In this document: one piece after another, positions 37,022 to 41,042 of the stretch | Numbering within the stretch: position 1 is the stretch's first letter | Layout of the letters: each line of letters begins with the position of its first letter | NCBI GenBank assembly: GCA_900659855.1 | Contig: CAACVI010000010.1 | Location: forward strand, 1 to 56,966 | Length of the DNA: 56,966 nt | Direction of reading: 5' to 3' | From: Candidatus Desulfarcum epimagneticum | GTDB lineage: Bacteria > Desulfobacterota > Desulfobacteria > Desulfobacterales > CR-1 | Notes under the pieces: generated by a model | Told to the model about the DNA's origin: nothing | What the model saw: only the letters and a program-made list of their open reading frames with translations | Databases searched by the model: none | Program-made: the position numbers and the translations under genes

Positions 37022-38161
37022 ATGACAAATTCCCCATACAGAATCATCGACACCCCGTCGAAGCTGGAGACATTCGCGGCTGAAATCGCCGGGTCCAAAA
37101 CCATATCGGTGGACATGGAGGCCGATTCCATGCACCATTTCAAGGAAAGGGTCTGCCTGATACAGATGGCGGCCAACGGGAAAAAGGCCCTGATAGACGC
37201 CATCGCTCTTTCGGACATGTCCCCGGTCAAACCCCTTTTTTCCGATCCGGACATTGAGAAAATTTTCCACGGCGCCGATTACGACATCCGGAGCCTTCAC
37301 CGGTATTTTCAAATCGAGGTGAGCCATCTGTTCGACACCCAGGTGGCGGCCATGTGGGCCGGCGACCGGGAAACCGGCCTGGAGGCGGCGCTCAGGACCC
37401 GGGTGGGGGTCTCCATCACCAAGAAATACCAGAAAAAAGACTGGTCCATGCGCCCGCTGCCCCCGGAGATGCTGGACTACGCCATCTCGGATGTGGGGCA
37501 TCTTGTGGATCTGTCCCAAAGCCTCAAACGGGATTTGAGGCGGATGGGCCGCCTGGAGTGGGTCCTGGAGGAATGCGAGGCCGTGAGCCGGGTCCGGCGC
37601 TCGGAAAAGGAGCCGGGACCGCTTTTTGCCGGGGTCAAGGGCGCCGGGAGGCTGAAGCCCCGGTCCCTGGCCGCCCTGGAGTCTCTTTTGAAATTTCGAA
37701 AAAGCGCGGCAAAGAAAAAAGACCGGCCCCTTTTTAAAATCATCAGCGACCGCCGCCTTCTGGAAATCGCCCGGGCCATGCCCGGGGACATGAAGCGTCT
37801 CAAGGCGCTCAACGCGCTGAGCCCGAGGCAGACGGCCATGCACGGAAAGGAGATATTAAGGCGGCTGGAGCGGGTCCGAAAAGCCGATCCCTCCGATTAT
37901 CCCGCGCCGGCGAAGAGAAAGCCCCGCCGAAGGCGCTCCCGCCGGGCGGCCTCGCGCATGGAGGCCTTAAAGGCGTGGCGGGACCGAAAGGCCGGGGAGC
38001 TGGCGCTTCCCCAGGGTCTGGTGTGCGGCAAAAAGATCATGGCGGCCGTCGCCGAGGCCGATCCCTCGGGTCCCGGCGATCTGGAGAAGATTCCCGGTAT
38101 GAGGCCCTGGCGCCGAAGGGAATTCGGCCCTGAGATTCTTTCGGCCCTTGAAAAAGTGTAA
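37022..38161 (+). CDS. rnd: Ribonuclease D
   Basis: The 379-residue 3'-5' exoribonuclease has the DEDDy domain: SVDMEADSMH (Exo I), FHGADYDIRSLHRYF (Exo II) and LPPEMLDYAISDVGHLVDL (Exo III with Tyr and Asp). Two HRDC-like helical regions follow (about 210-290 and 310-379). RNase D trims tRNA and stable-RNA 3' ends. It is divergent from thrS, with 91 bp between the two starts. Confidence 0.9.
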   Translation: MTNSPYRIIDTPSKLETFAAEIAGSKTISVDMEADSMHHFKERVCLIQMAANGKKALIDAIALSDMSPVKPLFSDPDIEKIFHGADYDIRSLHRYFQIEVSHLFDTQVAAMWAGDRETGLEAALRTRVGVSITKKYQKKDWSMRPLPPEMLDYAISDVGHLVDLSQSLKRDLRRMGRLEWVLEECEAVSRVRRSEKEPGPLFAGVKGAGRLKPRSLAALESLLKFRKSAAKKKDRPLFKIISDRRLLEIARAMPGDMKRLKALNALSPRQTAMHGKEILRRLERVRKADPSDYPAPAKRKPRRRRSRRAASRMEALKAWRDRKAGELALPQGLVCGKKIMAAVAEADPSGPGDLEKIPGMRPWRRREFGPEILSALEKV

Positions 38162-38192
38162 GACCGGGTGTCCAAACCGTTTTTTATTTTTA

Positions 38193-38216
38193 AGACACAT
38201 GTGTCTCATGAGACAC
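38193..38216. promoter_or_regulatory. Overlapping palindromes, candidate activator site
   Basis: AGACACATGTGTCT (38193-38206) and GTGTCTCATGAGACAC (38201-38216) are perfect overlapping palindromes built from three copies of the half-site AGACACA. They lie about 65-85 bp upstream of a sigma-54 promoter, the normal place for an enhancer-binding-protein site. Confidence 0.55.
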
Positions 38217-38278
38217 ACCCGCCTGTGGAGCGAAATTCCAACCCTTTGATTTCAAATGAAATAATGATTCCGGCCTTG

Positions 38279-38294
38279 TGGCGCCGTTTTTGCT
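38279..38294 (+). promoter_or_regulatory. Sigma-54 (RpoN) promoter
   Basis: TGGCGCCGTTTTTGCT has the invariant GG and GC at the required 10-base spacing and matches the TGGCAC-N5-TTGC consensus at nearly every conserved position. It lies 62 bp before the ATG at 38356, with an AGGAGG ribosome-binding site in between. Confidence 0.68.
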
Positions 38295-38355
38295 TTATTA
38301 TAAAGACAACACATAAAAAATTAAAGCGAAATAAAAAGCGAAACAGGAGGAAGCC

Positions 38356-38712
38356 ATGTCAGGATTAAACGAACTGAAAAAAGATGTGGATATCATCAAC
38401 CAGATCGACTGGAATATGACGCCGGAAGAGGCCGTTCGGCTCTACCTGGAATGGGGAAACAACTGGGCCGGCGGAAGTTACGTCATTCGGTCCAAAGATG
38501 ACGTGTCCCATTATTTTGTGATCAACACCTGGAAAGGAGAGCCCGTGATTTACCTGGTCCGGCGGGACTCCCAGGAGGCCGAGAACCTGGCTGAAATCAA
38601 CATGCCCCTGGACCTGAAAGAAAGATACGCCCAAGAGGCGGGCGGCATCAAGGGCGTTTTCGCGGTGGAGGGGGAAGTCCGAGACTGGCTCAAAAAAGAG
38701 CTGAGCGTCTGA
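38356..38712 (+). CDS. Small conserved protein (DVU0772-like)
   Basis: A 118-residue soluble acidic protein without signal peptide or membrane segment. It contains DWNMTPEEAVRLYLEWGNNWAGG and a predicted alpha/beta core (YFVINTWKGEPVIYLVRR). From memory it resembles a conserved family of sulfate reducers named after Desulfovibrio vulgaris DVU0772; function unknown. It has its own sigma-54 promoter and palindromic upstream site, and convergent asmA ends six bases after its stop. Confidence 0.75.
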   Translation: MSGLNELKKDVDIINQIDWNMTPEEAVRLYLEWGNNWAGGSYVIRSKDDVSHYFVINTWKGEPVIYLVRRDSQEAENLAEINMPLDLKERYAQEAGGIKGVFAVEGEVRDWLKKELSV

Positions 38713-38717
38713 TCGTT

Positions 38718-40823
38718 TTATTTTCCCAGGAATTTCATCAGGGTCTCGCCGACTCCCCGGGCCGCGTCCCGAATGGGATTTGGCTTCCCTGATGGTTTTT
38801 CATTTCCGTTTTTCTTTTCGGAGTGAAGGCCCCGGGCCTTTTTCAGAGACGCGACGCAGGGGTTTTCATCCCCAGAATTCCCGGTCAGAAGCGCCGCGGC
38901 GGCCCCGACGGGACCAAAGAGCGCCACCCCGCCGATGGCCTTTCCGATGGCCACGGCGGTCCTGGCGGGATCCAGCGTCAAAGACGGATCGGACCAGGTC
39001 CCTTTCACCCGGAAGGTTTTGGCCAGATCGCCCAGCCCCACGCCGATTTTCCCGGCGCCGGGTATTTTTAGGCCCTCCTTGGAATGGGGATGAAAGGCCA
39101 TATCCAGCCCCCGGGTGTTCAAATCAATGGAGCCCTCCCCGGATACGCTGAAATTCGGCGTGTCCATCAGCAGGACCTCGGTCCGGGCCACCCCCTTTTG
39201 AATGCCGAAGGCGCCGGCCAGGCAGTTGACTTTTGCCGAATCCTCCTTTTCCCCCGCCGGGTTGAGACGTTTGATAAGGCCGGTGGAAAAGTCCGTCCCC
39301 GCCAGACGCAGCCACCGGCTGTGAAACCGGCCGTTTTGCATGGTCGCCGCGGCCGTTCCCGAAAGATTCTCCACCAGCCCGGCCGCCGATTCCCCCCGGG
39401 TTTTGAGGCGGATGTGGATGTCGGCCTTTCCCTCAAGGGCGCCGGCGCTTCCCATGCCTTTGACCATCTCCCCCAGGTCGAGCCCTTTCATGGACACATC
39501 CCCGGAGATGTCGGCGGATTTTTTGGCCGGGGTCAGGGTCAGGCGCCCCTTGACGGGGCCTCCCCCGATATGGGCGTCAAAGGCCCGGATGTCCAGGGCG
39601 CCGTTTTGAAGACGGCCGTGGAAACGCAAATCGTCCAGGGTCATTTTCGGCGTTTTAAGATTTTGGACCGCCAGGCGGATGTCGGCGTTGATCGTTTTCA
39701 GGACATCAAAGGGCAAAGGGGTCCGGGGCCAGGGTCCGGCCTCTTCCTTTTTCGCGCCGGTTTCCCCGTTTTTCCCCTCCCTTTTTTTCCCGATTTTTTC
39801 ACCCGGGAAAAAAGGCCCCAGGTCCACGGCCTTTGACTTCAGGTCGGTCCGGACAAAGGGCGTTTTCCCGGACAGATCGAGGCTCGCCGAGCCCTCAAGA
39901 ACGTTGGCGCCCAGCGCCAGCCGAAGACCGGAAAGGGCGTATTTCCCGGGCCCCCGGTCCCGGATTTTTCCAGACGCCTCAAAGGGGGCGGCCGAGGGGA
40001 TGGCGTCCGCCGCGGCCTTGATCCGGCGGATGTCCGTCGTTTTTAAAGAAAAGTCCAGGTTGAGCCCGGAGCCCGACAGGGGGTTTTGGATATCCCCGGA
40101 TATATCGGCGTCCACTTCGCCCGCGCGGCCCCGGATATCCACCGGCCAGGGCGTTTCGGGGTCCATGAGGTCTTTTAAGGCGCCGGTGGCGGCCGAAAAG
40201 CGGAAGGGCGTTTTTTCAAAGGCCCCTTTGAAATCGATCCGGATGGGAGAATTCACGTCTTGGGCCGAGGCGGCGGCGTGGTCGATCCGAATGGAAAGCG
40301 CCTCGCCCCCGGCGTCGCCGATCCAGGACACCACGGCGTTTTCGATTCTTAAATCATTGAAAACCAGGGACATGGGCCGGGAGGGCTCTTTTTCTTTTTT
40401 GGCGGTTTCTTTCCCGGCGTCTTTGTCCGGGACGTCGAAGGACAGGCTGGATTTCCCCCCGGGGCCGGTTTCGATGAACACCTCGGGCTCCACGATGACG
40501 AGCCGTCTGACCTCCACCTCGCCTTTGAAAAGGGGCCAGAGGGCCGCTTTGACCTCAAAGCGCCGGGTCCGGACCAAGTCCGGATTCCGGGCCCATCCCG
40601 GGTTTTTCAAGGCCGCGCCCTCGACCACAAGGCTCGGCGTCAGACCGATTTCCAGCCGGATGTCGCCGTCCAGCGCCAGGTCCCGCCCGGTGGCGCTTTT
40701 CACCGCCCGGATGACTTTGGGTTTGAGCGCGTTGTAGTCATAGCCGGCGAGAATGAAATAAGCCGCCGCCATCGCCAGGGCCAGAAACCCGGCGGCCGCC
40801 GCCATCGCTTTTTTGACAGACAT
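38718..40823 (-). CDS. AsmA-family protein
   Basis: The 701-residue protein has one N-terminal membrane helix (AAAAGFLALAMAAAYFILAGYDYN). It then has the AsmA opening (RAVKSATGRDLALDGDIRLEIGLTPSLVVEGAALKNP), a long repetitive beta-rich periplasmic body, and the conserved C-terminal AsmA_2 block (LSGTAAATMQNGRFHSRWLRLAG...). AsmA-like proteins are bridge-like lipid-transfer proteins that affect outer-membrane lipid balance. I start at ATG 40823 after GGGGGAGG; the open frame starts 26 codons earlier. Confidence 0.9.
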   Translation of the reverse strand: MSVKKAMAAAAGFLALAMAAAYFILAGYDYNALKPKVIRAVKSATGRDLALDGDIRLEIGLTPSLVVEGAALKNPGWARNPDLVRTRRFEVKAALWPLFKGEVEVRRLVIVEPEVFIETGPGGKSSLSFDVPDKDAGKETAKKEKEPSRPMSLVFNDLRIENAVVSWIGDAGGEALSIRIDHAAASAQDVNSPIRIDFKGAFEKTPFRFSAATGALKDLMDPETPWPVDIRGRAGEVDADISGDIQNPLSGSGLNLDFSLKTTDIRRIKAAADAIPSAAPFEASGKIRDRGPGKYALSGLRLALGANVLEGSASLDLSGKTPFVRTDLKSKAVDLGPFFPGEKIGKKREGKNGETGAKKEEAGPWPRTPLPFDVLKTINADIRLAVQNLKTPKMTLDDLRFHGRLQNGALDIRAFDAHIGGGPVKGRLTLTPAKKSADISGDVSMKGLDLGEMVKGMGSAGALEGKADIHIRLKTRGESAAGLVENLSGTAAATMQNGRFHSRWLRLAGTDFSTGLIKRLNPAGEKEDSAKVNCLAGAFGIQKGVARTEVLLMDTPNFSVSGEGSIDLNTRGLDMAFHPHSKEGLKIPGAGKIGVGLGDLAKTFRVKGTWSDPSLTLDPARTAVAIGKAIGGVALFGPVGAAAALLTGNSGDENPCVASLKKARGLHSEKKNGNEKPSGKPNPIRDAARGVGETLMKFLGK

Positions 40824-41042
40824 GCCCGACCTCCCCCGCCCCGCCCGCGTGTTCGGCCGACCGAGCCCCGTTTCAACCCAACCGTTTGAAATAAAATTCA
40901 AACGAAATGGGCGGATTTCAAAAAAGGCCCGCGTTGGGGGCGAAAAATCTTGATTTTATGCCTTATCTCTGTTTTAACTCTGTGTAAGATTTTGATTGTA
41001 CCGAATGAAGGCTCTTCTGTCAAATAAAGAGAGGTCGGCGTC

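Follow-up and report, generated by a model that had tools for sequence, protein, structure and literature searches.

A putative sigma-54 promoter and operator place a DVU0772-family gene in a candidate oxygen-defence regulon of Candidatus Desulfarcum epimagneticum

The window examined here is a 56,966 nt stretch of DNA from Candidatus Desulfarcum epimagneticum. At positions 38356 to 38712 of the forward strand it carries an open reading frame for a 118 aa protein that matches the NCBIfam model NF045682 (‘DVU0772 family’) with 122.6 bits, well above the curated cut-off of 45, and thus bears out the DVU0772-like target named in the initial annotation. An AGGAGG ribosome-binding site is apparent from the sequence at 38345 to 38350 on the same strand. 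Upstream lies a forward-strand gene whose product has the 3′-5′ exonuclease and HRDC domains of RNase D-type proteins (37022 to 38161), and a reverse-strand AsmA family gene (38718 to 40901) converges from the other side; both flanking assignments come from Pfam.

The gap ahead of the DVU0772-family gene contains a predicted sigma-54 promoter, TGGCGCCGTTTTTGCT, at 38279 to 38294 on the forward strand, in which 10 bases separate the −24 GG (38280 to 38281) from the −12 GC (38292 to 38293). Farther upstream, 62 to 86 bp before the −24 box, are two overlapping perfect palindromes, AGACACATGTGTCT at 38193 to 38206 and TGTGTCTCATGAGACACA at 38200 to 38217, and the heptamer AGACACA or its complement occurs at 38193 to 38199, 38200 to 38206 and 38211 to 38217. 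The −24/−12 site, the palindromes and the 118 aa reading frame are all present exactly where they had been annotated.

Sigma-54 promoters remain off until an activator fires. The GG and GC doublets, their 10-base spacing and the TGGC-N8-TGCW context are those of a sigma-54 promoter, and the genome carries a single gene for RpoN (PF04552, one match, E 1e-58). The promoter pattern alone is weak evidence because it is common in the window, where TGGCN8TGCW with at most one mismatch matches 101 times (7 exactly) against 74.9 expected. Across the genome, TGGCGCCNNNTTTGCW with at most one mismatch occurs in 38 places and its reversed form in 8; the promoter at 38279 to 38294 is one of only 6 exact copies. 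Of 198 DVU0772-family orthologue loci found in named genomes 80 were kept, and 74 of these have 200 bp or more of upstream DNA; a sigma-54 score of at least 14 occurs in 49 of the 74. The resemblance to the RpoN consensus noted initially is matched by the rarity of exact copies and by similar sites before orthologues. Four more exact TGGCGCCNNNTTTGCW sites lie elsewhere in the host genome (G000:C1:491841, C12:116652, C12:387238 and C45:201459). Three of these are within about 3 kb of genes for other enhancer-binding proteins (EBPs), and are likely targets of those EBPs.

Comparison of the orthologue upstream regions changes the definition of the palindromic site. AGACACA, proposed initially as the half-site, or its complement is found in only 8 of the 74 upstream regions and is not the conserved unit, as against 30 of 74 for TGAKACA-N4-TGTMTCA with at most two mismatches. 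The window matches the latter form with one mismatch at 38191 to 38208 (TAAGACA-CATG-TGTCTCA, no strand assigned), and we take this as the main putative EBP operator. Joined to it at 38209 to 38215, likewise without strand, is a third half-site, TGAGACA, that creates the second palindrome at 38200 to 38217. Such an attachment recurs: in a set of 79 sites (which excludes L291, L298, L304 and L305, and whose two contributing genome sets overlap), a third TGAKACA with at most one mismatch is directly attached in 15, compared with 0 to 5 at offsets 19 to 31. An extra TGTMTCA is preferred 15 to 17 bases ahead of the operator (6, 9 and 11 of the 79 sites). The base profile of the operator was computed from 58 sites. 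By this comparison the two overlapping palindromes of the window form a putative compound operator with a third half-site attached. The distance from operator centre to −12 box ranges from 68 to 307 bp in the 46 upstream regions that have both elements and is about 91 bp here. The orthologues also favour the earlier suggestion that a palindrome bound by an activator lies where an enhancer would.

Within the host genome the 18 bp operator with at most one mismatch occurs in only two places, the window site at 38191 to 38208 and a locus on contig C13, as judged from complete matches to the 16 bp core that were then scored for the 18-mer; the exact 18-mer has no copy in this genome. About two copies with at most one mismatch are expected by chance at this genome size and an even base composition, and the pair carries weight only because both copies precede exact sigma-54 sites. 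At C13 the operator, TGAAACATATCTGTCTCA, lies in the gap between an EBP gene and a divergent operon, ahead of TGGCGCCGTATTTGCA, an exact copy of the sigma-54 form. Of the 38 sigma-54-like loci 30 were examined, and the operator lies within 300 bp upstream in just two of them, the window and C13. The best match to the 16 bp core in the genome, at L081, overlaps the start of a reading frame that we take to encode a transposase; no sigma-54 score in that locus reaches 14, and we counted this match as chance.

The search for an orphan NtrC-type regulator near a second copy of the operator, suggested initially, thus yields a candidate at C13, one that lacks a receiver domain. Its gene (G000:C13:30435-31766) encodes a 444 aa protein, otherwise uncharacterised, with PAS, AAA+ and HTH_8 domains. 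The AAA+ domain matches PF00158 (Sigma54_activat) with 223.4 bits (cut-off 20.2) and the C-terminal Fis-type domain matches PF02954 (HTH_8) with 37.2 bits (cut-off 22). EBPs carry a GAFTGA-type loop, which here reads GAFSGA. Nine host genes encode a full sigma-54 activation domain, with three weak matches besides; C13 is the only one of the nine loci with the 18 bp operator at one mismatch or fewer. An alignment of 53 rows from the EBP clade, in which some genes appear more than once, has invariant H21, C50, H51, C59 and C63 in the PAS sensor, with C66 present in 42 rows. Three other host EBPs have C50, C59 and C63 and lack H21 and H51. From these residues it is a fair guess, and no more, that the PAS domain of the C13 clade acts as a metal- or thiol-based redox sensor.

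The operon divergent from the C13 EBP gene encodes a 69 aa protein, a rubrerythrin, a desulfoferrodoxin, a rubredoxin-like protein and an FMN reductase-LMWPc fusion, together with a rubredoxin, a flavodiiron protein and a ferredoxin. By established enzymology this is a set with which strict anaerobes reduce superoxide, peroxide and oxygen. Two more genes, one rubrerythrin/ferritin-like and the other for a cytochrome c, are convergent with the operon. The initial annotation proposed a dedicated circuit for the DVU0772-family gene alone. The same pair of operator and promoter also sits between the EBP gene and the oxygen-defence operon, and that proposal is too narrow since the operator adjoins oxygen-defence genes both at C13 and in related genomes. 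The 69 aa protein at the head of the operon (L224:5232-5441) matches no Pfam or NCBIfam model, and it recurs near the operator at L295, L297, L301, L303, L315 and L318. A 29 aa stretch of the rubredoxin-like reading frame (L224:6643-6939) is also present at L094, L260 and L265 in the host genome and is probably a dispersed repeat.

The distribution of the C13 EBP clade was compared with that of the DVU0772-family gene and its upstream elements in 116 genomes of the order. Scored as present at 470 bits or more, the clade occurs in 62 of the 116 genomes; distant or split copies (G005, G082) fall below this threshold and were scored negative, and copies may be missed because 14 candidates per genome were scored in the order sample and 6 in the phylum draw. 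A DVU0772-family gene above the cut-off is found in 92 genomes, 57 of the 62 EBP-positive and 35 of the 54 others (P = 4e-4). Upstream DNA was read for all 92, and 87 regions were usable: four had less than 200 bp and G046 was left out as mis-located at a contig end, and the region from G109 contains 74 masked bases. Among EBP-positive genomes, 27 of 56 have a sigma-54 site before the DVU0772-family gene, compared with 2 of 31 EBP-negative ones (P = 4e-5). For the operator with at most two mismatches the counts are 16 of 56 and 1 of 31 (P = 0.004), and at the stricter limit of one mismatch they are 8 of 56 and 1 of 31, which is not significant (P = 0.15). When each family is given one vote, with G046 still counted as a non-hit, the values become 21 of 40 versus 2 of 22 for the sigma-54 site (P = 8e-4) and 14 of 40 versus 1 of 22 for the operator with at most two mismatches (P = 0.011). 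All these P values assume independent genomes or families. No recognisable sigma-54 site precedes the gene in 29 of the 56 EBP-positive genomes, and no operator with at most two mismatches in 40 of the 56. In the phylum draw, 16 of 23 genomes with the EBP (E ≤ 1e-115) have a DVU0772-family gene, compared with 39 of 224 others (P = 4e-7).

Both elements exceed the level of dinucleotide shuffles before orthologues, contrary to the lack of conservation that the initial annotation had named as refuting its proposal. Among 57 EBP-positive upstream regions, 27 have a sigma-54 score of at least 14 (shuffle mean 1.47, maximum 6) and 16 have the operator with at most two mismatches (shuffle mean 0.23, maximum 3); these 57 rows include G046, which has no real upstream DNA and counts as a non-hit, so that the true denominator is 56. 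The comparison therefore supports well the predicted sigma-54 promoter and the putative EBP operator. One variant lies outside this pattern. In G070, scored EBP-negative, TGAGACA-N3-TGTCTCA with a 3 bp spacer occurs about 216 bp before the DVU0772-family gene (L138), where perhaps a related regulator binds.

Gene order gives a further indication of linkage. The EBP and DVU0772-family genes lie within 6 kb of each other in 14 of 57 genomes, and in G027 the operator, the sigma-54 site, the DVU0772-family gene and a convergent EBP gene follow one another in a row. At 12 of the 80 named loci the DVU0772-family gene diverges from a rubrerythrin gene, a desulfoferrodoxin gene or both, and the operator with at most two mismatches is present in all 12 of these gaps, which are not all independent because three have one identical site. 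A sigma-54 score of at least 13 is directed towards the DVU0772-family gene in 9 of the 12 gaps, and at this loose threshold towards rubrerythrin in only 3.

A search with the exact operator alone found 48 sites in the 116 genomes compared with 3 for a reversed control. We defined as regulon-type the genes for rubrerythrin, desulfoferrodoxin, flavodiiron protein/rubredoxin, ferritin-like protein, FMN reductase, the 69 aa protein, the DVU0772 family and the EBP. Such genes lie within 1.5 kb of the operator at 17 of 30 loci fetched from the 48 sites, L300 and L307 being included by weak similarity only. Two more of the 17 (L293 and L311, with a DVU0772-family gene alone) are circular since the consensus was derived from DVU0772-family upstream regions, and without them the count is 15 of 30. 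In 40 control loci from the host genome the only match was to a 29 aa repeat, in three loci. The operator is inside a reading frame at two of the 30 loci (L298, L305). Exact operators are present in 24 of 62 EBP-positive genomes and 10 of 54 others (P = 0.024), and are thus only moderately tied to the presence of the EBP. At four of the remaining 13 loci (L302, L309, L312 and L313, operator at 1501) a prismane/CO-dehydrogenase family gene, which we take to encode CO dehydrogenase, adjoins the site; a sigma-54 score of 14 faces that gene in three of the four, and CO dehydrogenase is a possible further member of the regulon. Glutaredoxin or citrate synthase genes are found at others of the 13.

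Genome comparison thus points to a conserved promoter and operator, to an operator beside the EBP gene, to gene linkage and to co-occurrence. It is quite probable, in our judgement, that the EBP encoded at C13 works the sigma-54 promoter at 38279 to 38294 and that the DVU0772-family gene belongs to an oxygen- or redox-stress regulon. In the model that we infer for binding, activation, signal and the role of the protein, the C13 EBP would bind the compound operator at 38191 to 38215; when its PAS sensor is triggered, it would reach sigma-54 RNA polymerase at 38279 to 38294 and open the DVU0772-family promoter. The same EBP would also drive the oxygen-defence operon that faces away from the EBP gene; the regulon would then be a response to oxygen or redox stress, with the DVU0772-like protein among its members.

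NorR is an EBP with a GAF sensor domain, and the sigma-54 promoter that it activates serves a flavodiiron NO reductase. The C13 EBP and its regulon might respond to nitric oxide or nitrosative stress, as NorR does, all the more as the C13 operon includes a rubredoxin and a flavodiiron protein that scores best against flavorubredoxin models, albeit under their cut-offs. The C13 EBP scores 311.6 bits against the NorR model, below the curated cut-off of 476, and is not NorR by that test. NorR-norVW of Escherichia coli likewise has a one-component EBP beside a sigma-54 stress operon with a flavodiiron protein. The sensor here is instead a PAS domain with conserved His and Cys residues, the operator is TGAKACA-N4-TGTMTCA, the operon encodes rubrerythrin and desulfoferrodoxin, and the DVU0772-family gene is a further target. 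The rubrerythrin, desulfoferrodoxin and ferritin-like neighbours indicate superoxide, peroxide and oxygen, and in one study NO left rubrerythrin and catalase of D. desulfuricans unchanged (PMC5701242), in another species with other regulators. We consider an NO signal unlikely.

It is also conceivable that the sigma-54 promoter is real and that another EBP, or another type of transcription factor, binds the palindromes, with the adjacency to the C13 EBP gene coincidental. The host has nine EBPs to choose from, and 10 of the 48 exact operators are in genomes scored EBP-negative. Some of those genomes are incomplete or have distant copies (G005, G061, G031), however, and the operator is linked to, and co-occurs with, a single EBP clade and is missing at one mismatch or fewer from the other eight host EBP loci, which makes a different binder decidedly improbable. 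That promoter and operator are functionless chance matches has in its favour how common the promoter pattern by itself is in the window; since both are conserved far above shuffle level and tend to occur where one EBP clade is present, we give this explanation hardly any credence.

PerR regulons have been predicted for Desulfovibrio. Rodionov 2004 (PMC545781) placed predicted PerR boxes ahead of a hypothetical gene in two genomes of that genus; going by its number, the one in D. vulgaris is probably DVU0772. The same text cites a personal communication that oxygen stress in D. vulgaris turns the predicted PerR operons down. As far as described there, rubrerythrin genes and the probable DVU0772 gene are common to these predicted regulons and the one proposed here, although PerR, a repressor of the Fur family, has its boxes close to the start codon and control here would be through sigma-54. 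The host itself carries one Fur-family gene. Of the eight DVU0772-family genes from family f112 of the phylum draw, 6 are preceded by a PerR-like box no more than 80 bp from the start (500 shuffles gave a mean of 0.1 and a maximum of 2), and none of these eight genomes has the EBP at E 1e-115. Clear PerR-like boxes were confined to f112 within the phylum draw; the idea that EBP-negative genomes of the order generally carry a PerR box before the gene found no support, as matches there are near shuffle level. The pattern suggests a regulator swap, with PerR controlling the DVU0772-family gene in one lineage and the EBP doing so in others, and control by these two regulators supports an oxygen-defence role for the gene.

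We propose tentatively, and with slightly less than even confidence, that the main anaerobic oxygen-defence switch across much of the order and in parts of the phylum is not PerR but a one-component EBP that acts through sigma-54 and whose PAS domain bears a clade-specific His/Cys set. The targets of this EBP would be genes for rubrerythrin, desulfoferrodoxin, rubredoxin/flavodiiron and ferritin-like proteins and members of the DVU0772 family, with CO dehydrogenase added in some species, and the DVU0772 protein would be a new component of oxygen defence that is under PerR in another family. If this is true, then because sigma-54 promoters are off until activated, strict anaerobes would have a tightly gated oxygen-defence switch instead of derepression. 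The proposal would supply a regulator with its operator, and a regulon open to testing, for a group in which the response to oxygen is poorly explained, and PerR-like boxes in one family and the EBP in others would constitute a clear case of regulator replacement around a conserved target. Among open-licence papers (most subscription papers fall outside this set) we found no description of such an oxygen-defence sigma-54 regulon and none that pairs desulfoferrodoxin with an enhancer-binding protein. EBP regulons were likewise reconstructed by comparison in a relative, D. vulgaris Hildenborough, whose sigma-54 regulome comprises 36 regulons (Kazakov 2015, PMC4641369); the main text mentions no rubrerythrin, desulfoferrodoxin, superoxide, oxygen or operator half-sites.

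The regulon would also tie the DVU0772 family to the oxygen response; no open-licence paper naming DVU0772 was found. Pfam at E 0.001 gives no family match for the 118 aa protein, and the best hit of a profile search has E 0.23. The predicted structure is a fair model (pLDDT 82.5, pTM 0.74) for which structure comparison gave no convincing solved fold (best Foldseek E 0.34, best Z 2.8). Invariant residues of the family include W19, W33 and W59, and W111 is a fourth tryptophan; these residues give no function. At L259 in G281 a DVU0772-like part is fused to a C-terminal region that, in our reading, resembles DUF1566.
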